Positions 7,491 to 64,000 of a stretch of DNA of 64,000 nt are shown here, one piece after another. The DNA comes from Apostichopus japonicus (taxonomy: Eukaryota > Echinodermata > Holothuroidea > Aspidochirotida > Stichopodidae). The translations under genes and the position numbers were made by a program. The stretch lies in the NCBI RefSeq assembly GCF_037975245.1, contig NC_092570.1:203501-267500 (forward strand). The letters are read 5' to 3'. Under the pieces are notes generated by a model. It saw only the letters and a list, made by a program, of their open reading frames with translations, searched no databases and was not told where the DNA came from. Each line of letters opens with the position of its first letter. Within the stretch, counting starts at the first letter, position 1.

Positions 7491-9289
7491 TATTCAAGGT
7501 TTTTAGCAAAGAGAATGTCTCAAGACACCACCTTGAAAGTCCTACAAACTAAGAAATATAAGAGCCAACCTTTGATAGTGAGACCATTGATTAAATCACC
7601 ATTAAAAGGATGGATTAGTCCTGCAGCATCCTCTGATAACACTTTTATTTTCTTGTTATCCATGCATTTGCAGAGCATAATATTTGAAGTGTACCAATGT
7701 GAACTTGTTTGTAAAATAAGTATTGAAAACTTTTATAGCACTAATTAACCTTCTATTATGATTATAAATGCTAAAAGCAAAGCTGCATGTGATTGGTATC
7801 ACCTAACCAAAGCATTGATTGCTGTATGTTCCAATATAAAATACCACTATATTGTATGGACAAGACTCAAGCTTCAATAGCAAACATGTAATTTCACATT
7901 ATTGGAGGGGATCTATATTAATGCTCACATGCTCCACAGCTTACTGTGGCAAATGTAACCTTCTTACAAGGTCTAACAGCATTCCTCCATGAAGACATTC
8001 AAAGTCGCTATTTGAAGTGCAAGTTTAGCAGGTGAGTGGCTACAGTGATGGCATGACCATGTACCTTTAGTTCTTTGTTAAAGAAAATATATGAAAGAAA
8101 ACATCTAAACAAATGTACAGTAAACTTCTGTTGAATTTGTCTCTTTGTAAGCAATTCTTATTTCTTCAATCAAGAGTCCTGTTCCGAGTCACACACTATG
8201 CAAATGATACAAACTTTGACATATTAAGTCACTCTTTACTAGTTGTTCATTTCTGACATAAGCCAAAAGTTTACAAACAAATTATGTACATTAATAACAA
8301 TCATTCTTCAGAGTAAACAACTTGTTTGTGCTAACATATGTACTTCTAAGAAAATGTTAGGAAATCACTTGCAGTTTACTTCCTCACAATCATACAAATA
8401 TTTGAAATAATATTCATGAATACATATATCACTTGAATACATAATTAATAATAAGTGGCTGTGAGGCTTCAGTTAATGCTACCATTACCCTCCCTAACCC
8501 CCATAGAATACACACACAGCATCATGAAATATATATTTTTACCTAAGGCCTTAGACACATCCATGAAAGTATGAATAGGGAGCCTTTATTACCCGTCTTC
8601 ACTCTTCCCTATACCCCCCCCCACACCCCCCCAAGCCATTCCAACCCTCCTGTTTTCTGGTGCTGCACCAACGGCCAAAATTTGGACCCTGATTCTTATG
8701 CACATTACAGCTAAGTTAATAGGCTGCTGAAGTGTGTGATTTTCAAAATGTAGCAGAAGTTCCAGAGCAAAAATAAGTATTAGATGGGTTAACCTCTGAT
8801 TGACCTTTGACCAAGAGAGACATGAAACTGCAACCACTGCTGCTTTAATCCTTAAACCTTTCCAAGTGTAAAGGAATTTGAGATGTTCAACATGCTTTAT
8901 ATTCAGTCCCACTGGGATTAAAATGTGACTATTATTCATCACAGACCAAACATGTAGGTTTGGTACAGATTTTATTTCAACTGTAGAAATGCTTCAGAAA
9001 TGCAATGCAAACAACTTAAAGGTCATCAGTATTGCCGCATATTATGCTAGAAATCCATGTTATGGTCACTGAAGCTCAGATTGCAACACACATTTGACTG
9101 GGATCCTCATGCAATCTGTCTGAGACATTTAAATGCTAATTGATTCCTCCTGTCTGAAAGTAATGTGGAAGATCAGAGCCTCCCAGCAATAATTAGCAGC
9201 AAAGATTTGGGCAAATACTAGTGACCATTAAAAGAAATTATCTGCTTTCATCAGCATGTCAAATAATTCAGCTACTTGAGATTATGCCA
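7491..9289. other. Spacer after TAF6, no firm gene
   Basis: The region is AT-rich unique sequence with a short C-rich tract near 8612-8633. I see no conserved coding region apart from one exon-like segment at 7940-8031. Confidence 0.6.
7940..8031 (+). other. Exon-like segment of unknown origin
   Basis: The segment is preceded by GCTCCACAG and followed by a near-perfect donor AG|GTGAGT. Of the three frames only one is open throughout, encoding LTVANVTFLQGLTAFLHEDI followed by QSRYLKCKFSR. No partner exon was found, and TAF6 already ends upstream. It may be an alternative TAF6 3' exon, a relic, or chance. Confidence 0.2.
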
Positions 9290-12824: not shown

Positions 12825-15800
12825 CTGTTGAAAAGAGAAAAAGTGGTGCTTTTATATAACTAGAAAGACCAGAACAAACCTAAAGAACATACACAGATGA
12901 TGAAACGGAACAATGCAATAATATTATAATAATGCAATCATATAACTGAAGTAAAATAAGCCCAAAATTATCTTGGTCACACAACAATTCAGGTATTTGA
13001 CCTAACTATAGACACAAACCTACCACACTTATAAAAAGTATGATTCTCTTTAAAATAAAATCACATTTGGGAGAGGATAGTAGGGGGGTACCATAAAAAC
13101 TGCAATTGCAAACCAATTTTCAAAAAATGATGCAAGAGTTCTGTTACCTAAATGCAGCAACAGTGTTAGGAAGAAAAAGAAAGTAAGGATAAAATGGGAA
13201 AAAGAGAAGCACAAATAGGAATGTAGGAACAAAAACATACAAGCTTTGCTTAATGTAGCGTGGTCTTGTCAGAGATGACAGGCAATGCCAAGACTCAACT
13301 GTTAGAGCTTACCCTTTCTTCAATTTCCTGGTCTAACTGCCTCAGTTTCTCATCCAGGGCTGTTCTCTCCTTGGACAAATCAGATTCGCTTCCACCTGGA
13401 GAGGCAGAGGAGACCAGAATGATATTTATTTTGCCAGATGAGGGAGATTGATACCATTTATCCTACTAACAGAATGACCTCCAAAAAATGCATTGGGGTT
13501 TCTGCACTTCATGAGGTGGATCTACACACATGCAGTTTACTTAACATTTCCATGAGGAATAATTGTGCTTACAAGGCTTTTAGACTGGTGTGATCTCAAA
13601 TGCTGTTTGACCTACTTATGAAGCAAAATTCTTTTAAGGGTGATCTGCATGCAACACAGAAAGTTCATTCAATCTTTACTTTGAAGTTTTGGATTTAAAA
13701 AGTTTGGGACTTTGATAGCTGCTGACTTCACATGACATTTGACCTCCACAATATATGCACCAAGTTTCTTACATTTACTAAGACAGATCTAGTACATACA
13801 AGGTCACAAGTTCAAGCAGGCTTTGTTTTTGGACTGTTTGTGTTACCATATCTCTACCACTGTTGGCCCTAAACGACTTTGGCCTAAAACAAAAAGATTC
13901 TTTTACTCACTAAGACGGATCTCTAGACATATCATGCAGCTGAATCAAATTTGAATACTGGAGTTGTGACTTTGACCTCAGATGACCATAACCTCTACAT
14001 AACACAAAAGGTTTCTTGCACTCACTAAGGTTATCTTTTACCTCCACAGCCAAAAAACACACGGTTCTAGCACTCAAAAAGATGAATCCACATACTATGA
14101 ACTACATACAAGACTTTAACCTATGTTGACCTTTGACCTCCACATAAGTAATAGGTGTATTGCATTAAGGTGTATCTATATATCATATCAAGTAGGAAGT
14201 CAATCCAAGCTTGGCTTTGGCTCTTTGACTTCCACCAATATCACTAGGGCTCTGAAACATACCAAGGAGATTTATTGCGTTTACGATGTTATCAGACTTT
14301 GACCTCTTTTGACGTTCGACCTCCACCAAATTCAATGGGCTTCTTGTACTCATCAAGTTGGATATATGTACCAATATGAAGCTCAACTATGATATCCTTC
14401 TTGAGTTATGGTGTTTACAATGAGTGTCACATACACACAAACATGCACTTACACATGACTGCATGGACTACTGTTGCCTTCCGGAATCAAAAATCAAAAA
14501 TACTTTTCAAAAACAATTGTAAATAGTTTCCCTCAAACTACAAGATTGTGAAAAGAAATGTACACATAGACATCTTTAACCCCAAACTTGGGACAGAAAA
14601 TGCTAAACACGGAACAGTTGATCAGCAAATTATTACAGTTTTAGTGGAAGAGAAGAGGGGAGGGGAGAACTTACTAGGATTTGTGTGTATGCGGATATGC
14701 TTGGAGGTTGAACATTGTAATATCAGTGTAGTAATGAAACCAAATTAGAAAAATAAATTCCAGAATTTTCAAGGATTGAATACATCCCAAGGTTTAAAGA
14801 AGTTTTGAACTTTCTCTTTTGTAAATTTCTTGATTGTATTAAACTCACTTGCACCCAGTGAGACTCCTGATGTTGTTACAGATGAGGGGTAGGAAGATAC
14901 CCCTGATTCCACCAAGCCTGGTATTCTTTCTTGTGAACCCGTCGGGGCAGCAGTGTGGCGGGCAAGGATAAGGTTCTGTTGTGAGCCAACAGGAGATAGT
15001 GACATCAAGCTTAAATTTTGCATAGAGACCACCGGTGACCTTGAAATGTTTTGATTAGATGAGTGAGGTGACCTCTGAGTTATATTGTGAAGAGAAGTGA
15101 CACTATTACCAGGAGAAGTCCTGTTGTTGAGGGAATCGGAAGAGTTTCTCCTAATATTTTGGACAGAAGAATTTGGGGAAATGGACGTGGGTCTAGATGA
15201 CGTGGATGAGAGTGATGAATCTCGTTCTTGAATTTGCTGGCGTAAGATTTGGATGAGCACTTCTTTCTGGTCAAGTTGAGCTTTGAGTTTGTTTAAACTG
15301 ATGGACAAAGGAAAAAGACTTTGACTGCCTCAGGATACTATTAAAGCAGCTGAAGCAAAACCAGTGATAACAGAATGACATGTAATGTGCTGCAAAAACA
15401 TTGCCATTCCACCTTACATTTCTACAGCAATAAATAAAAGACTGCCTTAAATTGTTCACAACATTTTAATGCAGGAAATATTTTTAACATGACACAGGTC
15501 TGAAACCAGTACCCTCAGGATAAGAAGTTCTGTGAGCCTTTAACTGATCTATCCTGAGCTAAATTACGGCAACTTCCTACAATTCCTTCTTTTGAATATA
15601 GTGTGGATGTAAACCAGACATATATATGATCAAGGAACCTTTAAATTTCTTACTTGGCATCCATGTCAGTCATTCTGTGTGGATTTGAATGGTCATTAGA
15701 CAGGTTTGAACGGTCACTGCTACCTTCAGCGGTTTCTCTGATGTGGAGGTCAGGAGAAACTCTTGGAATTTCTAAAGACTGGCGAAGAGTACATTCTTCT

Positions 15801-18800
15801 AAGTACTTTTGCTCCCACTGTGATGAAAACAGAAACAACAGTGAGTAAAGTTGATGTCTCTAGTTCCATTCACCCCCCTTCAACACCCTCTCCTCCCAAA
15901 AGTAGCTCAACAGACCCACAATTACTATATGCTATATTTTGATTTCCAAACTCTATATACACCTAAAGGTATTCAAGAGAGGAACACTTTATGTTCAATC
16001 TCTTTTACGATGAATTCTTCTGCATGACAGGAAAACTTACAATTAACCCATTACGCATATGTTACCTTGCTAACTTCAGCCTCCAGTCTTAATATGGTTG
16101 AATATTTTCCATTACATATACGTCACCATGCTAACTTCAGCCTCCAGTCTTAATATGGTTGAATATTTTCCATTACGCATACGTTACCTTGCTAACTTCA
16201 GCCTCCAGTCTTAACATGGTTGAATCTTTTCCATTATGCATACGTTACCTTGCTAACTTCAGCCTCCAGTCTTAACATGGTTGCATCTTTTCCATTACGC
16301 ATACGTTACCTTGTTAACTTCAGCCTCCAGTCTTAACATGGTTGCATCTTTTCCATTACGCATACGTTACCTTGTTAACTTCAGCCTCCAGTCTTAACAT
16401 GGTTGCATCTTTTCCATTACGCATACGTTACCTTGTTAACTTCAGCCTCCAGTCTCAACATGGTTGCATCTTTTCCATTACGCATACGTTACCTTGTTAA
16501 CTTCAGCCTCCAGTCTCAACATGGTTGCATCTTTTCCATTACGCATACGTTACCTTGCTAACTTCAGCCTCCAGTCTCAACATGGTTGCATCTTTTCCAT
16601 TACGCATACGTTACCTTGCTAACTTCAGCCTCCAGTCTTAACATGGTTGCATCTTTTCCATTACGCATACGTTACCTTGTTAACTTCAGCCTCCAGTCTT
16701 AACATGGTTGCATCTTTTCCATTACGCATACGTTACCTTGTTAACTTCAGCCTCCAGTCTTAACATGGTTGCATCTTTTCCATTACGCATACGTTACCTT
16801 GTTAACTTCAGCCTCCAGTCTTAACATGGTTGCATCTTTTCCATTACGCATACGTTACCTTGCTAACTTCAGCCTCCAGTCTTAACATGGTTGCATCTTT
16901 TCCATTACGCATACGTTACCTTGCTAACTTCAGCCTCCAGTCTTAACATGGTTGCATCTTTTCCATTACGCATACGTTACCTTGCTAACTTCAGCCTCCA
17001 GTCTTAACATGGTTGCATCTTTTCCATTACGCATACGTTACCTTGCTAACTTCAGCCTCCAGTCTTAACATGGTTGCATCTTTTCCATTACGCATACGTT
17101 ACCTTGCTAACTTCAGCCTCCAGTCTTAACATGGTTGCATCTTTTCCATTACGCATACGTTACCTTGCTAACTTCAGCCTCCAGTCTCAACATGGTTGCA
17201 TCTTTTCCATTACGCATACGTTACCTTGCTAACTTCAGCCTCCAGTCTCAACATGGTTGCATCTTTTCCATTACGCATACGTTACCTTGCTAACTTCAGC
17301 CTCCAGTCTCAACATGGTTGCATCTTTTCCATTACGCATACGTTACCTTGCTAACTTCAGCCTCCAGTCTCAACATGGTTGCATCTTTTCCATTACGCAT
17401 ACGTTACCTTGCTAACTTCAGCCTCCAGTCTCAACATGGTTGCATCTTTTCCATTACGCATACGTTACCTTGCTAACTTCAGCCTCCAGTCTCAACATGG
17501 TTGCATCTTTTCCATTACGCATACGTTACCTTGCTAACTTCAGCCTCCAGTCTCAACATGGTTGCATCTTTTCCATTACGCATACGTTACCTTGCTAACT
17601 TCAGCCTCCAGTCTCAACATGGTTGCATCTTTTCCATTACGCATACGTTACCTTGCTAACTTCAGCCTCCAGTCTCAACATGGTTGCATCTTTTCCATTA
17701 CGCATACGTTACCTTGTTAACTTCAGCCTCCAGTCTCAACATGGTTGCATCTTTTCCATTACATATACGTTACCTTGCTAACTTCAGCCTCCAGTCTCAA
17801 CATGGTTGCATCTTTTCCATTACATATACGTTACCTTGCTAACTTCAGCCTCCAGTCTCAACATGGTTGCATCTTTTCCATTACATATACGTTACCTTGC
17901 TAACTTCAGCCTCCAGTCTCAACATGGTTGCATCTTTTCCATTACATATACGTTACCTTGCTAACTTCAGCCTCCAGTCTCAACATGGTTGCATCTTTTC
18001 CATTACGCATACGTTACCTTGCTAACTTCAGCCTCCAGTCTCAACATGGTTGCATCTTTTCCATTACATATACGTTACCTTGCTAACTTCAGCCTCCAGT
18101 CTCAACATGGTTGCATCTTTTCCATTACATATACGTTACCTTGCTAACTTCAGCCTCCAGTCTCAACATGGTTGCATCTTTTCCATTACATATACGTTAC
18201 CTTGCTAACTTCAGCCTCCAGTCTCAACATGGTTGCATCTTTTCCATTACATATACGTTACCTTGCTAACTTCAGCCTCCAGTCTCAACATGGTTGCATC
18301 TTTTCCATTACATATACGTTACCTTGCTAACTTCAGCCTCCAGTCTCAACATGGTTGCATCTTTTCCATTACGCATACGTTACCATGCTAACTTCAGCCT
18401 CCAGTCTTAACATGGTTGCATCTTTTCCATTACGCATACGTTACCTTGCTAACTTCAGCCTCCAGTCTTAACATGGTTGCATCTTTTCCATTACGCATAC
18501 GTTACCTTGCTAACTTCAGCCTCCAGTCTTAACATGGTTGCATCTTTTCCATTACATATACAATACCTTGCTAACTTCAGCCTCCAGTCTCAATATGGTT
18601 GCATCCTTTTCTCGAATAAGATCAGCTAAAGACGTACTTTCATTATCTTCGAGTCCTGACACCCCTTCGTCAGGAGGAGTGTTCCTCTAAAGATAGACGA
18701 GAGAATGAAACCGTTTAGTGGTTTCGATGCCTTAATCTATTCATAGTCTGGTAGGTCATACATGTTAATATTCCTGAACTTGTGCAAAGCAAAATATATT

Positions 18801-21800: not shown

Positions 21801-24800
21801 AACCTATAACAGCATACCCATATATGCTCTCCAGAGCAAACTGTGACATGACAGCAACCTATAACAGCATACCCATATATGCTCTAAGAGCAAACTGTGA
21901 CATGACAGCAACCTATAACAGCATACCCTTATTCTCTAAGAGCACCTATTGCAGCATACCCATATGCTCTAAGCGCAAACTGTGACATGACAGCAACCTA
22001 TAACAGCATACCCATATATGCTCTAAGAGCAAACTGTGACATGACAGCAACCTATTACAGCATACCTATATGCTCTAAGAGCAAACTGTGACATGACAGC
22101 AACCTATTACAGCATACCCATATGCTCTAAGCGCAAACTGTGACATGACAGCAACCTATTACAGCATACCTATATGCTCTAAGAGCAAACTGTGACATGA
22201 CAGCAACCTATTACAGCATACCTATATGCTCTAAGAGCAAACTGTGACATGACAGCAACCTATTACAGCATACCTATATGCTCTAAGAGCAAACTGTGAC
22301 ATGACAGCAACCTATTACAGCATACCCATATGCTCTAAGCGCAAACTGTGACATGACAGCAACCTATTACAGCATACCTATATGCTCTAAGAGCAAACTG
22401 TGACATGACAGCAACCTATAACAGCATACCCATATATGCTCTAAGAGCAAACTGTGACATGACAGCAACCTATTACAGCATACCTATATGCTCTAAGAGC
22501 AAACTGTGACATGACAGCAACCTATTACAGCATACCCATATGCTCTAAGCGCAAACTGTGACATGACAGCAACCTATTACAGCATACCTATATGCTCTAA
22601 GAGCAAACTGTGACATGACAGCAACCTATTACAGCATACCTATATGCTCTAAGAGCAAACTGTGACATGACAGCAACCTATAACAGCATACCCTTATTCT
22701 CTAAGAGCACCTATTACAGCATACCCATATGCTCTAAGCGCAAACTGTGACATGACAGCAACCTATTACAGCATACCCATATGCTCTAAGCGCAAACTGT
22801 GACATGACAGCAACCTATTACAGCATACCTATATGCTCTCAGAGCAAACTGTGACATGACAGCAACCTATTACAGCATACCCTTATTCTCTAAGAGCACC
22901 TATTACAGCATACCTATATGCTCTAAGCGCAAACTGTGACATGACAGCAACCTATAACAGCATACCCATATATGCTCTAAGAGCAAACTATGACATGACA
23001 GCAACCTATTACAGCATACCCATATATGCTCTCAGAGCAAACTGTGACATGACAGCAACCTATAACAGCATACCCATATATGCTCTAAGAGCAAACTATG
23101 ACATGACAGCAACCTATTACAGCATACCCATATATGCTCTCCAGAGCAAACTGTGACATGACAGCATCCTATTACAGCATACCCATATATGCTTTCAGAG
23201 CAAACTGTGACATGACAGCAACCTATTATCAATATTAGCAAAACTGTTGGGTGCTCCACAATAAAACAAACTTAATTCTCATGACAAGGGATTGCATTTT
23301 TGTTTTCTCTCAATGAGCAAACAAAAGCTAGTAACTTTGTCCAAACATCCGGTGATGAAGCATTTTTTTAAATGCTTGCATACAAGAATGAAAATATAAG
23401 AACACTATTTTTGTGAAATGAGATGTTTCAGATTTCCTGGATGAGAGAAGCTGATGAAAGCTCCTTGCAATATATCTGTTTGCCAAAAGAAGAAAATTGC
23501 ATAGTAATACATCTTGATACACTGTTTAAAAACATAGAAACATAGAGCTGGTTGTCACGGAAACCAAGAAACACTCCCTATTGGCATGGCATTTTCTTTC
23601 AACATACCTTTTCAATTTTTAACCTCTCTATTTCTTTCTCCAAATGTTCCCTTACTTGCTGTTCCTTGATTTCTCTCTTCTGAATGGCTTTTTGCAGTGA
23701 TTCGACCAGACTCTCAAGTGCATTGGCCTTCTCCAGGTAACCTTGTCTTCGCTTGCACTGAAAACAAAATAGTAACGTCAAAAAAAAAAACAGATAAAAG
23801 AAAGAGAAAGACAAATGAAGCAAGGACAAGTTACTGAACAAACTTCATATCCACAGGTTGGTCCTGCTGCAGAAATGAAATGTTCAGAGGACTGACAGGT
23901 GTAATGCAGCAAAGAGACGTTTGCTTCGAATCCAAGGAAAAATGTTGAATAGACATGCAGCCTTCAGAAATTAAGTTTATTCAAATTATATATTTAAAAT
24001 GGGGACTGGGGTCAAAGGAAAACTGTTCTGTTCACAAGTGAAAGATATGAAATTGATTATCTAGCCCGTAAGCTATTGTTTCCAAAGGGTTCTTGTGCTG
24101 ATATATGCAAATTTAAGGATGGCAATCTTGTTTTCTGTTTTGTCCTGGCAGGCAGGACTTGGTTTTATCCTAACAAGATCATCCTTTATGGAATATGTTG
24201 ATATATTTATTCTTTACATCCCAGCAGAATCTCAATTGTTTGATCCTAACAGTGTCTTTGTTTTGATGATAGTATCACTGCTTTGATCCTAGCAGGATCT
24301 TCATGGTTTTTATACCTATTAGTCTATTTCATGATGCTGATCATAGAACAACCTTCACTGTGGCAGAATCTTAATTGTTTGATCCTAACAGTGTCTTTGT
24401 TTTGATGATAGTATCACTGCTTTGATCCTAGCAGGATCTTCATGGTTTTTACACCTATTAGTCTATTTCATGATGCTGATCATACAACAACCTTCACTGT
24501 AGCAGAATCTTTATTGTTTGATCCTAACAGTGTCTTTGTTTTGATGATAGTATCACTGCTTTGATCCTAGCAGGATCTTCATGGTTCTTATACCTATTAG
24601 TCTATTTCATGATGCTGATCATAGAACAACCTTCACTGTAGCAGAATCTTAATTGTTTGATCCTAACAGTGTCTTTGTTTTGATGATAGTATCACTGCTT
24701 TGATCCTAGCAGGATCTTCATGGTTTTTATACCTATTAGTCTATTTCATGATGCTGATCATAGAACAACCTTCACTGTAGCAGAATCTTAATTGTTTTGG

Positions 24801-34000: not shown

Positions 34001-37000
34001 AGGTTCAACATTTATTCTAGCCATTTATTTTCTTTTTAATTTTAAAATAAGCTCCAATTCATTTAACAAAAAAGTTTTGAGACATATATAGCTACGTAAT
34101 ATTCAAATTGCGGATTGTTCCTGACTTTGTTGAGCTGTATTCTTTATTTGGTCATATTTCTAATTCTATTCTATTTGAAATTTCCCATTTTATGATGAAA
34201 TTGAAAGCAGTGCTCATTCTCTTCTGGCATTGTTTCTTTGCATTCCTCGGAGTAGACTAACTTGCATGATGGGAGGACGAGGAATTACTGTAGTCCACTA
34301 AAACTTTCTTCATCACAGGAGGAGGGGAAGATACACAGAAGTGCACCTCTGATACAATCCCTGCATTCCATGCATGCTATTCTTGACAAGTGAGATGAAG
34401 GGATCCGGAATCCTGGAATGTGTCAAGGAACACCTGCATATTACACAGTACTAAAGTAAAGACAACTACAACAGTGGAAGACAAGCTGGTATATCAGATA
34501 TATATCTATGTTTGTGATGTAGAGCTACTAACTCTGATACATCAGACAAACACCATTGTAGAGAGATTCAAACAATAATGTACAGTAGGTAATTTCTTAT
34601 TCTTGGTCACAGCCTATGATCCTAACAAAATAGCTCAAAGACATCTACCATAGAAGGCATGCTTGAAATTCTGCTGCTTGGAATGTAAGTGTTCTAACTG
34701 TGATACATATTAAGATGGACGATGACAGAAAAATCTCTGTTTTTCATATATATTGTAGTTTATTACCAAGCAACACATTGTTTGAATTTTTCAAATAGCA
34801 CACCAGGAAGTGATCAAAAAGGGGAATTGAAACGTTGTTTCTTCCATCTCCGTAATTGATACAAATTAGGAATATTGCAAACACTGCAACAACTCAGGTC
34901 AGTGAATTCATGACATCACTGTGATGATCTTATCTGTAGTGTACTTAATAGCACTCAGGTCAGTGAATGACATCACTGTGATGATCTTATCTGTAGTGCA
35001 CTGTTCAGCACTCAGGTCAGTGAATGACATCACTGTGATGATCTTATCTGAAGTGTACTGTTCAGCACTCAGGTCAGTGAATGACATCACTGTGATGATC
35101 TTATCTGTAGTGTACTGTGCAGCACTCAGGTCAGTGAATGACATCACTGTGATGATCTTATCTGTAGTGTACTTTTCAGCACTCAGGTCAGTGAATGACA
35201 TCACTGTGCTGATCTTATCTGTAGTGCACTGTTCAGCACTCAGGTCAGTGAATGACATCACTGTGATGATCTTATCTGTAGTGTACTGTTCAGCACTCAG
35301 GTCAGTGAATGACATCACTGTGATGCTCTTATCTGAAGTGCACTGTTCAGCACTCAGGTCAGTGAATGACATCAATGTGAAGATCTTATCTGTAGTGTAC
35401 TGTGCAGCACTCAGGTCAGTGAATAACATCACTGTGATGATCTTATCTGTAGTGCACTTTTCAGCACTCAGGTCAGTGAATGACGTCACTGTGATGATCT
35501 TACCTGTAGTTTACTGTTCAGTACTAAGGTCAGTGAATGACATCACTGTGATGATTTTATCTGTAGTGTACTGTTCAGCACTCAGGTCAGTGAATGACAT
35601 CACTGTGATGATCTTATCTGTAGTGCCCTGTTCAGCACTCAGGTCAGTGAATGACATCACTGTGATGATCTTATCTGTAGTTTACTGTTCAGCACTCAGG
35701 TCAGTGAATGACATCACTGTGATGATCTTATCTGAAGTGCACTGTTCAGCACTCAGGTCAGTGAATGACATCACTGTGATGATCTTATCTGTAGTGTACT
35801 TTTCAGCACTCAGGTCAGTGAATGATATCACTGTGCTGATCATATCTGAAGTTCACTGTTCAGCACTCAGGTCAGTGAATGACATCACTGTGATGATCTT
35901 ATCTGTAGTGTACTGTTCAGCACTCAGGTCAGTGAATGACATCACTGTGATGATCCTATCTGTAGTGTACTGTTCAGCACTCAGGTCAGTGAATGACATC
36001 ACTGTGATGATCTTATCTGTAGTGTACTGTTCAGCACTCAGGTCAGTGAATGGCATCACTGTGATGATCCTATCTGTAGTGTACTGTACAGTATGGAGCT
36101 GTGCGTGCATTTCATGTCAGCATAACTGTTATTTTAGTTTAATTTTACGGCGCAATGTTCAAGATAAATAGATAATTAATGTCATTATCGTTTTTTATGA
36201 CATTTGCAATGATTTCCCAATATGAATGTGCTCACCTTAGTTGTCATGGCACAATAATAATCATGATAGTCTCAAACATAGGTTAATATAACATCCATTA
36301 GAAACATCCAAACAAAGTAGAAGTGCTTGTATGCACTACTGTTGAGTCAGATATAAACATTACTTGTTCCGTTCATCATAAATCCAACAGAAAGGTCACA
36401 ATGAGTTTGAAATTCAACCCCATTTGAACTCAATCAAGTGGTCAGTCTACAGTAGCTTCCACAATTTCTTAACTACATTTAATGCCTATTGTGATTATTC
36501 ACATATACAACTCAAGGTTTGGGATTCAGGAGGAATCATTCTAGCCCAACTTCACGGCGGTCCGCAAACGGTACTTCCACACTGTGCCAACACAAGTAGC
36601 AGTGTGTGCGCTACTGGAAGTAATACTCACACAAAGTTTTTCACTCAAGCATACACGCATTTCCTATTCGTACCACACATTTACTGTAAATGCTACATGG
36701 ACGGTATCAAGACATTTCCGCCCAAAAACTCGCCCTAAGCGACGTCCATGCCCCAATTGTAATTTGCATGTGGATTCTTTCCTCATGTAGACATTAGGTC
36801 ATTCATGTCTGACATGTCTTCCAGTTCCAACACTTACTGTACTGTTGCATTTATCAGCTTATATAATATATATAAATAATGCATGCATTCAAACATGTTT
36901 TACTAATCTTTTATCTTCTTTTTAGAGCTTCCGAACTCTATGATGGAGGACTATAAAAGTCATGAAACATTTCTTTGAACTGGGTCAACACTTACACCAC

Positions 37001-40000
37001 TGTACTCAGGCGCGTATCCAGGATTTTCTAACCCGGGGGGCGCGAATTACTATCTAAGCGGAGCGCCACCATCAGTTGGCGCGGAGCGTACAAGAAAATT
37101 TCTGGTTTTGATACCCCCCCAGATCACCGGAAATGGCACTTCTCGGGCTTGAAAATGACCAACCAGATGAACACTTTTGCCTGAGAACCAAGTATTTCCC
37201 AAAAGTTTTTTTTTCCATCCATAACCTTTTTGGAGATTGTCACCAGTTACACATCATGTTCGACCTCATTGCATGTCCATTGCATGGATCATTGCTTTTG
37301 TAGGTGATTCTACGTCACGGCCCACAATATCTGAAAACCCCACTTTTGAAGGTTTTAAGCCCATTTGTGGTTGAGAATTTAAAATTCACATTTCTCGTGA
37401 ATAAAAATCCCTTCAAAACATACCCATAATGTTGCACAAAATTCAATATGTGGACAACTAATATAGAAAAAAACCCTTCAACCCCTAATAGACAGGTCAA
37501 AATTGCACGAGTAGAGGAAAGTATGATGGAGAATGTTGATCAGGAAATTTTCGAAAATTCAGACACAGTTAATTTATTGGTGTACAAATATTAAAACCTC
37601 TTATAATGGCTATTATAAAACTTGATTGAAGGAAATGAAAAATACCAAATATTTCCGATATCAGGTATATCGAAACCGAACACTACACACATAGGCGTAG
37701 GTCCCGTAGGAGGCGGGGGCTGCAGCCCCCCCCCCCCCCCGCAACCAAAATTTTTCCCATTTTTTCGGGCACCTACTGAAAGAAAAATAAATAGCAATGA
37801 ATAGCTTAAAAATGATCTCCTTGGTAATTAAAATAAAGTTCTAAGCTTGGCCGACATTACTACTGTAAAAGAGAGTTTTGACATAAATGGATCAGTGTGC
37901 TTTTTCTCCATCTACACAAGACATTTCGTTGTTTACATTAACATCCGGCGGTATACTGTGCAACTTTCACGGACCGTAAGGTACACGATGCCATGCAATG
38001 TAATGGCCGATGCTTGCTTATATGATACTGGCATCGATATGTTGAACGCGCGCGAAAAATTTTGGCTTTTTTTTCGGGCAAGTCGTTACAGCCCCAAATC
38101 CAATTGGGCTCCTACGTCTTTGACTACACACATAAACAGTTTTTGAGGCTGTTCATCGTGGAACATGCATTTCAATGCTCACTGATATGATGTTATATCT
38201 GTTATTTGCTTTACAAATTCGAACAGGCGTGTAGCGAGTAATTGCCAAGGGAGAGGCGAAGCCTGTATGCAAACTATCTAAGCGAAGCGCCACCATGAGT
38301 TGGCGCGAAGCGTACAAGAACAAGTTTGGCCGAAATTGCCTCCCAGATCGCTGGAAATGACACTTCCCAGGCCTTGTAAGTTGCACCTAAGCATTGTCTA
38401 TTTTGAAATTACTAGCGATGTCATAAAGAAAATTTGCTCGGGGGGGGGGGCGGTCGCCCCCTTCCCGAAATGCGTCATGTTCCCCGATGACTCGGTCGAG
38501 TTCAAGACCAGCCACAGTTGGTTCCATATAGCACAATTGTACAATTGTTTAAGGCGTTCATAAACACACAAGCGTTATGATAGACCATATATAGCATTTA
38601 TATAGATACATTAGTGAGAGAGGAAAAATGGAAACGTCAAAAATGGAGTTGTCGGTGTAAGGGGTAGGGTGAGGCGCACACCCCCTCTGTAATCCTTGAT
38701 CTGTCACTGGCTACCCTGTGTATATAATAGGGATCAGCGCTTTAACTATGACTGTTCCTCCGTTTCTCTTCCCGAGGTCTTGGCTATCTTCTACTCCCTC
38801 CTTTTCTCCCTTTTCTCTCTTTCTTCTTTTTCTTTTCCCTTCCTTTCTCTCCTCCTTTTCTTTTTTCCCTCCTTTTCCCTTTTTTCTTCTCTTTTTTTCT
38901 CTCCTCTTTTTCTTACCCGGGGGGCGCGCGCCCCCAACGCCCCCCCCCTGGATACGCACCTGGTACTATATGTCTGTCTCTGTCTCTAAGATCAAAGATT
39001 TTCTGAGGAATAATTATTTCAGGAAATAAGTATCATCTTGTGTACAAAAGTTGTCTTTAATATTTCAAGGGAGATGAAAGTTTGGCAGGCATCTTGCTTC
39101 ATCTACATATCAAACAAACTATACATGATAGGACAAAGCCAATCCTGCCCTCATTATGCCTTCAACTACTCTTAAAAGTACAGTTGCAATTTCAAATTCA
39201 GATACATTTTACTATCAAAGATTTGCAATCTTGAGATGAAACCAGATATTTGCACACTAAATCACACTTCAAAATGCATCACTAAAATAGTATTTGGCTT
39301 TCTGCAAATGTCAACAACATTAACTGGTGGGCAGATGACATGAAAATTGGCGTATTTGCGTGTTTAAATTTCCAATGGAAAAGTGTGTTAAGGAAATTTT
39401 TGCAGGGCTACAAGAGAAACGCATGAGTTTAATATGACGCATGCTATACAAGAAAAGAAAAACCTGTATATGGCCAAAGTGAAAGAACACACCATGCAGT
39501 TAGTGATAAAAAAGATGAATTGACTCTAGACCAGCAACAGTCATGCGGGTTGGTCGTAACATCAGTACATGCCCAAGGACAAAGTACCCTACCTCTCATA
39601 GGTCGGATAGGATGGAATCACTTCTGTGATACCAATGGTTCCTATTGGCTGTACCCTCTTTTTACTGTGCACAAGCCTATTGTGCTCCCCGCCAATGGTG
39701 TTGTATCCTATATCTTTCCCTGTCATCAGCTGTTTATATTTTGTAGCTGGAAGTTCCTTCTGATGGGCAAATGAAGCCGGAAGGGAGGATTGGACATAAA
39801 TACTTGGCGTTGTGATTTCCGTGGAGGTCACCTTTGATACAGGCTGGAATTCCTTCATCAGTTGGGAGAGGATGCTACTGCTAGACGAGGATGTAGAGGA
39901 ATAATTATCGCCTTGTAGGAGGGCATCTTGCATGTACTGGGCAGGTGCAACGTGCACGTGAGCTATGTTGCCCCCTTTGGAGTCTTTATTAAGGTAAACC

Positions 40001-61991: not shown

Positions 61992-63660
61992 CAGGCGCGT
62001 ATCCAGGATTTTCTAACCCGGGGGGCGCGAATTACCATCTAAGCGGAGCGCCACCATCGGTTGGCGCGGAGCGTACAAGAAAATTTTTGGTGTTGATACC
62101 CCCCAGATCACCGGAAATGGCACTTCTCGGGCTTGAAAATGGCGAACCAGATGTACACTTTTTGCCTGAGAACCAAGTATATCCCAAAAGTTTTTTTTTT
62201 CATCCATAACCTTTTTGAAGATTTTCACCAGTCACACATCATGTTCGTCCTCATTGCATGCCCTATGGATCATTGCTTTTGTAGGTGATTCTACGTCACC
62301 GCCCACAATATCCGAAAACCCCACTTTTCAAGGTTTTAAGCCGATTATTTGTTGAGAATCTGAAAATTCACATTTCTCGTGAATAAAAATCACTTGAAAA
62401 CATACCCATGATGTTGCAGAAAATTCAATCTATGGACAAGTAATATAGAAAAACCTCCTTGAACCCCTAATAGACAGGTCAAAATTGCACGAGTAGAAGA
62501 AAGTATGATGAAGAATGTTGGTGAGGAAATTTTCTAAAATTCCGACACAGTTAATTGATTGGTGTAGAAATATTGCAACCTCTTATAATGGCTATTATAA
62601 AACTTGGTTTCGGAACTGAAAAATAGGAGATATTTCCGATATCAGGTATATCGAAAGCGAACACTACACACTTAGGCGTAGGTCCCGTAGGAGGCGGGGG
62701 CTGATATTGGCATCGATATGTTGAACGCGCGCGAAGCGCGCGAAAAATTTCGGCTTTTTTTCGGGCAAGTCGTTACAGCCCCAAATCCAATTTGGCTCCT
62801 ACGCCTTTGACTACACACATAAACAGTTTTTTGAGGCTGTTCATCGTGGAACATGCATTCAATGCTCACTGATATGATCTTATATCTGCTCTTTGCTTTA
62901 CAAATTCGAACAGGCGTGTAGCGAGTAATTGCCAAGGGAGGGGCGAAGCCTGTAGGCAAACTATCTAAGCGAAGCGCCACCATAGGTTGGCGCGAAGCGT
63001 ACAAGAAAAATTTTGGCCGAAAATGCCTCCCAGATCGCTGGAAATGACACTTCCCAGGCCTTGTAAGTTGCATCTAAGCATTGTCTATTTTGAAATTACT
63101 AGCGATGTCATAAAGAAAATTTGCACGGGGGGGGGGGGCGGTCGCCCCCTTCCCGAAATGCGTCATGTTCCCCGACGACGCGGTCGAGTTCAAGACCAGC
63201 CACAGTTGGTTCCATATAGCACAATTGTACTACAATTTATACAATTGTTAAAGGCGTCCATACACACACACGCGTTATGATAGACCATATACAGTATTTA
63301 TATAGATACATTAGTGAGAGAGGAAAAATGGAAATGTCAAAAATGGAGTTGTCGGTGTAAGGGGTAGGGTGAGGCGCACACCCCCTCCGTAATCCTTGAT
63401 CTGTCACTGGCTACCCTGTGTATATAATAAGGATCAGCGCTTTAACTATGACTGTTCCTCTTTCTCTTCCCGAGGTCTTGGCTCTCTTTTACTCCCTCCT
63501 TTTCTCCTTTTTCTCTCTTTTTTCTTTTTCTTTTCCCTTCCTTTCTCTCCTCCTTTTCTTTTTTTCCCCTCTTTTTTCCCTTTTTTCTTCTCTTTTTTTG
63601 TCTCTCCTCTTTTCCTTACCCGGGGGGCGCGCGCCCCCAACGCCCCCCCTGGATACGCAC

Positions 63661-63663
<3 letters not shown>
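61992..63663. mobile_element. Composite TIR DNA transposon, copy B (1672 bp)
   Basis: Same orientation and structure as 37007-38962, with identical left end CAGGCGCGTATCCAGGATTT and right end CCTGGATACGCACCTG. It is inserted in a TA microsatellite (TA runs at 61971-61990 and 63664-63721), so the target duplication cannot be told from the repeat. The nested element is reduced to 62673-62809 and adds a palindromic GCGCGCGAAGCGCGCG. The rest is mostly collinear and closely similar, so the two copies came from one already composite source. No transposase frame. Confidence 0.87.

Positions 63664-63721
<58 letters not shown>
63664..63721. repeat. (TA)n microsatellite split by element B
   Basis: About 29 TA units directly after the transposon end, matching the shorter TA run before its start. 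Confidence 0.93.
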
Positions 63722-63723
<2 letters not shown>

Positions 63724-64000
63724 CTTCGTCGACTTGACTTAAATGATATCACAGGATCATTTAGGCAAACTCATTACCGAATGCCATTGAACGTCTCTGT
63801 AACACTATTCCCGATCAGTCTGTGAGCATCAAATAACACAGACGATGTCTTAATAAAGAAAACGACCTGACCTTGTTAACTGAACTCTCACCTTGTTCAA
63901 TCACGTGAGTAATCTTATACATAACTCATCTTTCAACTTCATTAAAGGTATGGCAGATCACAGACATCGCACGAAGTTCATACATTAACTACTACAAACC

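Follow-up and report, generated by a model that had tools for sequence, protein, structure and literature searches.

The angiomotin gene of the sea cucumber Apostichopus japonicus contains, adjoining one of its exons, 41 tandem copies of a 61-bp unit that crosses the exon-intron boundary and repeats the 5' splice site, an arrangement with the structure of a mirage. We consider it likely, with a probability of about 70%, that this array arose by tandem duplication, as a chance event at a locus rich in minisatellites, that splicing mainly uses the first donor and that the repeat has no dedicated function. The angiomotin array is neither the sole nor the biggest donor array in the genome, and the occurrence of many donors in series on exon ends of several genes is a more interesting result than angiomotin alone.

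Anatomy of the array and identity of the host gene

The features found in the window (the whole 64-kb stretch of DNA that was analysed) are collected in Table 1. A first-pass annotation of this DNA had named the host gene as angiomotin, and this identification was upheld: the joined peptides of four neighbouring exons matched the Pfam family Angiomotin_C with 88.2 bits (6.9e-25; cut-off 23.5), and a match to PF12240 at 4.8e-12 was obtained from the amplified exon and part of the next one alone. The name 'exon 7', which the annotation had given to the amplified exon, is a label only, as our gene model is incomplete, with nine donors in our own count. A search of the whole genome with the Angiomotin_C family model gave nothing over threshold, and nothing in the control genomes; a domain divided among exons would be missed in this way, and the joined exon peptides did match. 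The exon-pair peptide gave no match to solved structures. The frame is open through the whole of the amplified exon, and its acceptor, read on the minus strand as CTATCTTTAG, has its last base at 18687. The flanking introns measure 4.9 kb upstream (in our own gene model) and 2.7 kb downstream, the latter because of the array: the repeat accounts for 2501 of the 2749 nt of the host intron, and about 248 nt are left without it.

Tandem Repeats Finder (TRF) reported a single array at 16048-18611 with a period of 61, a match of 98% and 0% indels; its 42.0 copies count the exon itself, and the 41 copies proper, from 18549 to 16049, span 2501 bases. All 42 boundaries, at 18567 - 61k (k = 0..41), were read individually, which confirmed base by base the earlier count of 41 copies and the distance between the first and the last boundary (18567 - 16066 = 41 x 61). 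The composition of the unit, described before as the exon end, the AAG/GT boundary and the start of the intron, was likewise recovered. The boundary reads AAGGTAACG in 38 of the 41 copies and ATGGTAACG, ATGGTGACG and AAGGTAACA in one copy each; GTAAC is present in 40 of 41, in line with the annotation's 'nearly all', and GTGAC in one. Compared with the matching exon-plus-intron stretch the unit lacks one base (AAAAG in the copies, AAAAGG in the exon), and the coding frame is therefore lost in the copies. Reading of the unit by eye revealed no pyrimidine-rich acceptor, and the copies are therefore unlikely to serve as exons. When the genome was searched with the exon end, all 41 matches among the best candidates scored lay inside the angiomotin array. 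The locus thus combines short tandem units (42.0 copies of 61 bp) with a unit that crosses the exon-intron boundary of a real gene.

Table 1. Features of the angiomotin locus (positions within the window) and homology-backed exons with donor arrays elsewhere in the genome
Feature	Position	Strand	Basis or remark
Preceding angiomotin exon, 150 nt, peptide ...ERLKIEK	23608..23757	-	Joined-peptide Pfam match and sequence reading
Amplified angiomotin exon, 120 nt, 40-residue peptide	18567..18686	-	Acceptor and donor read; Pfam match
Authentic 5' splice site AAG/GTATTG, boundary 18567	18561..18569	-	Read as AAGGTATTG
41 tandem 61-bp copies	16049..18549	-	Each with 44 exon-like and 17 intron-like bases and a donor-like site
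Donor-like site of last copy, AAG/GTAACA, boundary 16066	16060..16068	-	
Host intron, 2749 nt	15818..18566	-	Pyrimidine-rich TCATCACAG acceptor
Next angiomotin exon, 164 nt	15654..15817	-	Joined-peptide Pfam match and sequence reading
Following angiomotin exon, runs to stop codon	14769..15297	-	Joined-peptide Pfam match and sequence reading
L029, YJU2 homologue, donor array at exon end			Yju2 2.9e-13
L050, KRI1 homologue, donor array at exon end			Kri1_C 9.3e-29
L056, NAP1 homologue, donor array at exon end			NAP 1.1e-9
L057, SID-1 channel-like, 43-bp donor array at exon end	C12:69300-73300		PF13965 2e-8
L039, USP6NL homologue, donor array at exon end			7.7e-6, solved structure only
L062, acyl-CoA oxidase (ACOX) homologue, donor array at exon end			2.4e-12, solved structure only
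L059, ATP13A2 homologue, donor array at exon end			1.3e-6, solved structure only

Probable origin of the array in a minisatellite-rich locus

Ten unit types, arranged in runs, occur across the 41 copies. Identity is 96.5% between copies and 88.0% between the copies and the exon end. Divergence is greatest in the two distal copies, which have CATATT as in the exon, against CATGTT in the other 39; elsewhere the array is homogenised in runs. Divergent end units beside a more uniform rest are the usual product of slippage or unequal exchange, and the pattern fits a minisatellite that turns over. Variable columns are found in the exon-like part (6 of 44) as well as in the intron-like part (5 of 17), the donor bases among them.

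The window holds 21 minisatellite arrays that cover 14.6 kb of 64 kb, mostly in its first 36 kb (1-36091), compared with 32 arrays and 7.9 kb in five 40-kb blocks (200 kb) taken elsewhere in the genome. Given the nine donors counted and the 18 arrays that have three or more copies, 0.16 arrays are expected on an angiomotin donor by chance (14% probability of one or more); the position of the array is therefore unusual, yet within chance. Another array in the window, with a 57-bp unit (19 codons; 34892-36091), lies within a plus-strand open frame of 421 codons, probably by unit length alone, and the stretches 38282-38989 and 62969-63737 contain highly similar translated reading frames, a dispersed repeat.

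In the reading that we prefer, a tandem duplication would have captured the last ~44 exon bases and the first 17-18 intron bases of angiomotin, and slippage or unequal exchange would then have expanded it to 41 copies wholly within the intron, with the true exon preserved at the 5' edge of the array.

Strength of the authentic donor and possible use of the copies

Donor strength was scored with a human splice-site matrix. The authentic donor scored 4.5 bits and the copies 5.1-7.3 bits; all 41 were higher, the 38 common ones by 2.8 bits. Duplexes with U1 over 11 bases gave -7.9 kcal/mol for the 38 common copies and -6.5 kcal/mol for the authentic donor, a gap of 1.4, and -6.4 to -6.5 kcal/mol for the three variant copies; over nine bases the common copies were better than the authentic donor by 0.8 kcal/mol. 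The suggestion that the copies look stronger than the authentic GTATTG thus held by the matrix for every copy and by duplex energy for 38. By the matrix the authentic site is also the weakest among the seven donors scored on our angiomotin gene model, whereas by U1 duplex energy two angiomotin donors are weaker than that of the amplified exon (-4.5 versus -5.7 kcal/mol). A simple folding model predicted an accessibility of 0.36 for the authentic donor and of 0.42-0.67 for nine sampled copies.

Any later donor would append GTA TTG TAT ATG TAA to the exon and place a stop at the fifth codon, +12 nt. The annotation had rightly predicted a stop within five codons; the sequence it quoted, GTAACGTATGCGTAA, is that of a copy, and the real stop lies in the first segment. 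The exon would be 120 nt long with the first donor and 181, 242, 303... nt long with the successive copies. As later copies need ever longer exons, copies 1 and 2 (181- and 242-nt exons) would be the credible competitors of the authentic donor.

The long flanking introns lead us to expect exon definition at the amplified exon. The spliceosome would then mainly pick the first donor, which is the nearest to the acceptor across the exon. In human data, at near-equal strength and under exon definition, the upstream donor, nearest to the acceptor across the exon, is favoured (PMC9225289). The same source reports that the stronger donor is dominant in 86% of competition events and that without a filter on strength the downstream donor is favoured in about 60%.

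These figures bear on the main alternative, in which the first one to three copies would be used in part of the transcripts, and these transcripts, being truncated or degraded, would lower angiomotin output. The score advantage of the common copies by both measures, the early stop after any later donor and the usual success of stronger donors in human data (PMC9225289) are all consistent with it, and such use is likelier at angiomotin because the authentic donor scores low. Against it, proximity across the exon speaks for the first donor when strengths are nearly equal, and lancelet mirages (Adh, TnC, globins) seem, according to PMC3087553 and PMC3902484, not to disturb regular splicing or to yield aberrant mRNAs. 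We regard partial use of the copies as possible though unlikely, and predominant use of the first donor as the better account. With a low authentic donor and higher copies, neutrality is nevertheless less certain at angiomotin than at most other arrays.

Tandem donor arrays elsewhere in the genome

The genome (671,581,487 bases, 35 contigs) was searched for tandem donor motifs in a loose and a strict form. The loose motif was AGGTRAG with a period of 37-67, whose listed matches belong to 13 arrays, all on contig 1; the strict motifs were the four 9-mers AAGGTAAGT, CAGGTAAGT, AAGGTGAGT and CAGGTGAGT with a period of 29-59. The loose search yielded 3,850 windows compared with 2,471 in the reversed control, and the strict searches 50 versus 38, 61 versus 48, 192 versus 36 and 65 versus 64, respectively. 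Since windows overlap inside arrays, these numbers were not taken as array counts; counting by hand gave 9, 6, at least 10 and 10 arrays for the four 9-mers. We read the 5' edges of 12 of the 13 loose-motif arrays and of 9, 6, 3 and 7 strict-motif arrays, respectively. Two arrays were common to both sets, which makes 35 edges in total; the remaining 10 strict-motif places (seven with AAGGTGAGT, three with CAGGTGAGT) are G/C-rich and dispersed. Dispersed G- or C-rich repeats contain AAGGTGAGT on C2, C3, C5, C6 and C7 and CAGGTGAGT on C6, C10 and C18.

In our own unblinded reading, 15 of the 35 edges, and possibly one more (L049), show an exon (acceptor and open frame) that continues up to the array's first donor. 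No such exon was seen at the other 19, of which the L042 edge was judged on only ~42 bases before the first motif. Seven of these 19 (L037, L040, L044, L046, L051, L053 and L063) likewise have an open frame, 43-89 codons long, that reaches the first motif, so an open frame by itself is weak evidence for an exon. The array of L040 (C1:12780680-12781480) has a ~49-bp unit in which an acceptor-like TTGTTTACAG stands a few bases from a donor-like AAGGTGAGG. That of L054 (C10:510000-510800) lies just upstream of the acceptor of a putative opposite-strand exon, whose product we take to resemble a RanBP1 domain.

Homology backs seven of the 15 exon-end arrays (Table 1); for the exons of L039, L062 and L059 the support came from solved structures, no Pfam match having passed the cut-off. 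At L036, matches to P-loop families stayed below their cut-offs, and at L030, L035, L041, L048, L052, L055 and L058 the exon call was made from an open frame and an acceptor alone. Family or structure searches with fragments of L030, L035, L037, L040, L041, L044, L048, L052, L053, L055 and L058 gave no match. On contig 12 the donor motif of the SID-1-like array begins near 71,950, where the exon ends, and can be followed down to 65,220 or further, over about 156 unit lengths with some imperfect units. L041 (C2:13555050-13555850) carries a 33-bp donor array with no stop reading on from the exon in the stretch examined; its unit length being divisible by three, use of later donors would insert repeats of 11 residues in frame.

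The authentic donor scored at least as high as the mean of the later AGGTR sites in 11 of the 13 arrays scored (angiomotin included; L058, L059 and L062 left aside). The two exceptions, with a weaker authentic donor, were L052 (10.1 versus 12.6 bits) and angiomotin (4.5 versus 7.3 bits).

Donor-like sites were not enriched in minisatellite units (13 of 53 arrays, 12.2 expected), and tandem AAGGTAAGT showed no significant enrichment over its reversed control (9 arrays at 8,442 places versus 8 at 16,317; Fisher p = 0.12). On the donor matrix used above, and assuming that genes have 6 to 10 introns, ~31-52% of the AAGGTAAGT places would be real donors; the average lengths given in PMC10344927 lead, by our own arithmetic, to nearer 5 introns per gene and to about a quarter. 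Two to three of the nine AAGGTAAGT arrays are at exon ends, which is compatible with those rates. Within the limits of a small sample and a rough estimate, the data suit arrays that are seeded regardless of function, with little removal on real donors.

The annotation had suggested that the angiomotin array could be a regulatory device of this particular gene. The same architecture at exon ends of unrelated genes (15, and one possible, of 35 edges), a donor position within the 14% chance probability and the lancelet reports cited above all argue against this view. A broader proposal is that donor mirages occur at many exon ends and that, where the copies outscore the authentic donor, the length of the array sets the share of poison transcripts. 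We hold it to be improbable, somewhat more so than partial use of the copies at angiomotin itself; if true, the dosage of genes of the angiomotin type would be a fast-mutating, possibly somatically variable trait. Whether strength or position decides has often been examined with pairs of rival donors, for instance in the minigenes of PMC9225289. A genome with mirages offers a ready-made collection of competing 5' splice sites, more than 100 near-identical donors in one gene included, and exons of several genes followed by tens to more than 100 such donors in tandem let RNA-seq test the exon-proximity rule directly.

Other explanations

Arrays of short units are generally hard to assemble, and an artefact in the existence or the length of the angiomotin array has to be weighed. 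Its unit variants follow one another in runs, and the HiFi reads of the A. japonicus assembly, with a mean length of 14.7 kb according to PMC10344927, can span a 2.5-kb array, so that collapse or false expansion is unlikely; we consider an artefact very improbable. Selection of the array length to tune angiomotin as a Hippo scaffold is equally far-fetched. Minisatellites in general vary in copy number, and what points to dosage control is only the position of the array in a Hippo-pathway gene; like arrays lie on the unrelated genes YJU2, KRI1, USP6NL, NAP1, SID-1, ACOX and ATP13A2, and the variable columns fall in the exon-like and intron-like parts alike, donor bases included. Least probable of all is a role of the 42 donor-like sites in series as a sponge for U1 snRNP, which the annotation had also raised, or as a platform on which bound U1 shields the transcript from premature polyadenylation: their complementarity to U1 is weak (-7.9 versus -14.0 kcal/mol for a consensus donor), and some 42 sites per pre-mRNA are too few against total U1, which makes sequestration implausible.

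Comparison with known systems

Ordinary intronic minisatellites resemble the angiomotin array in unit length, homogenisation and divergent end copies; unlike them, the angiomotin unit takes in coding exon sequence and a donor. Intron gain by tandem AGGT duplication (the Rogers model, cited in PMC3087553) shares with it the duplicated AG/GT. In contrast to what that model describes, nothing in the angiomotin array points to a newly formed intron or exon, and its copies are without an acceptor and a polypyrimidine tract, and intron gain by this route was rejected since the unit lacks a pyrimidine-rich acceptor.

The closest counterpart is found in lancelets, where tandem repeats spanning an exon-intron boundary were named 'mirages' in Adh3 and globin genes (PMC3087553); mirages of lancelet Adh and TnC were described, and PGBD5 was likened to them, in PMC3902484. 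Lancelet mirages are built like the angiomotin array: their units span the boundary, adjoin the authentic exon and in many cases repeat the AG/GT. Unit length is comparable (10-72 bp in the lancelet Adh3 mirage, 61 bp in angiomotin), whereas copy number differs, with 41 copies in angiomotin as against 3 and 6 units in two haplotypes of BflGb6 (lancelet globins BflGb6/BflGb9; PMC3087553). Among the titles listed, the open-licence full-text literature yielded no report of the mirage type in sea cucumbers or echinoderms, and no paper on angiomotin in Apostichopus japonicus was found in that literature. The phylum differs from that of the lancelets, and in the one sea cucumber genome 15 further cases were read at exon ends. 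Mirages, described from lancelets in the papers cited here, are thereby extended to an echinoderm.
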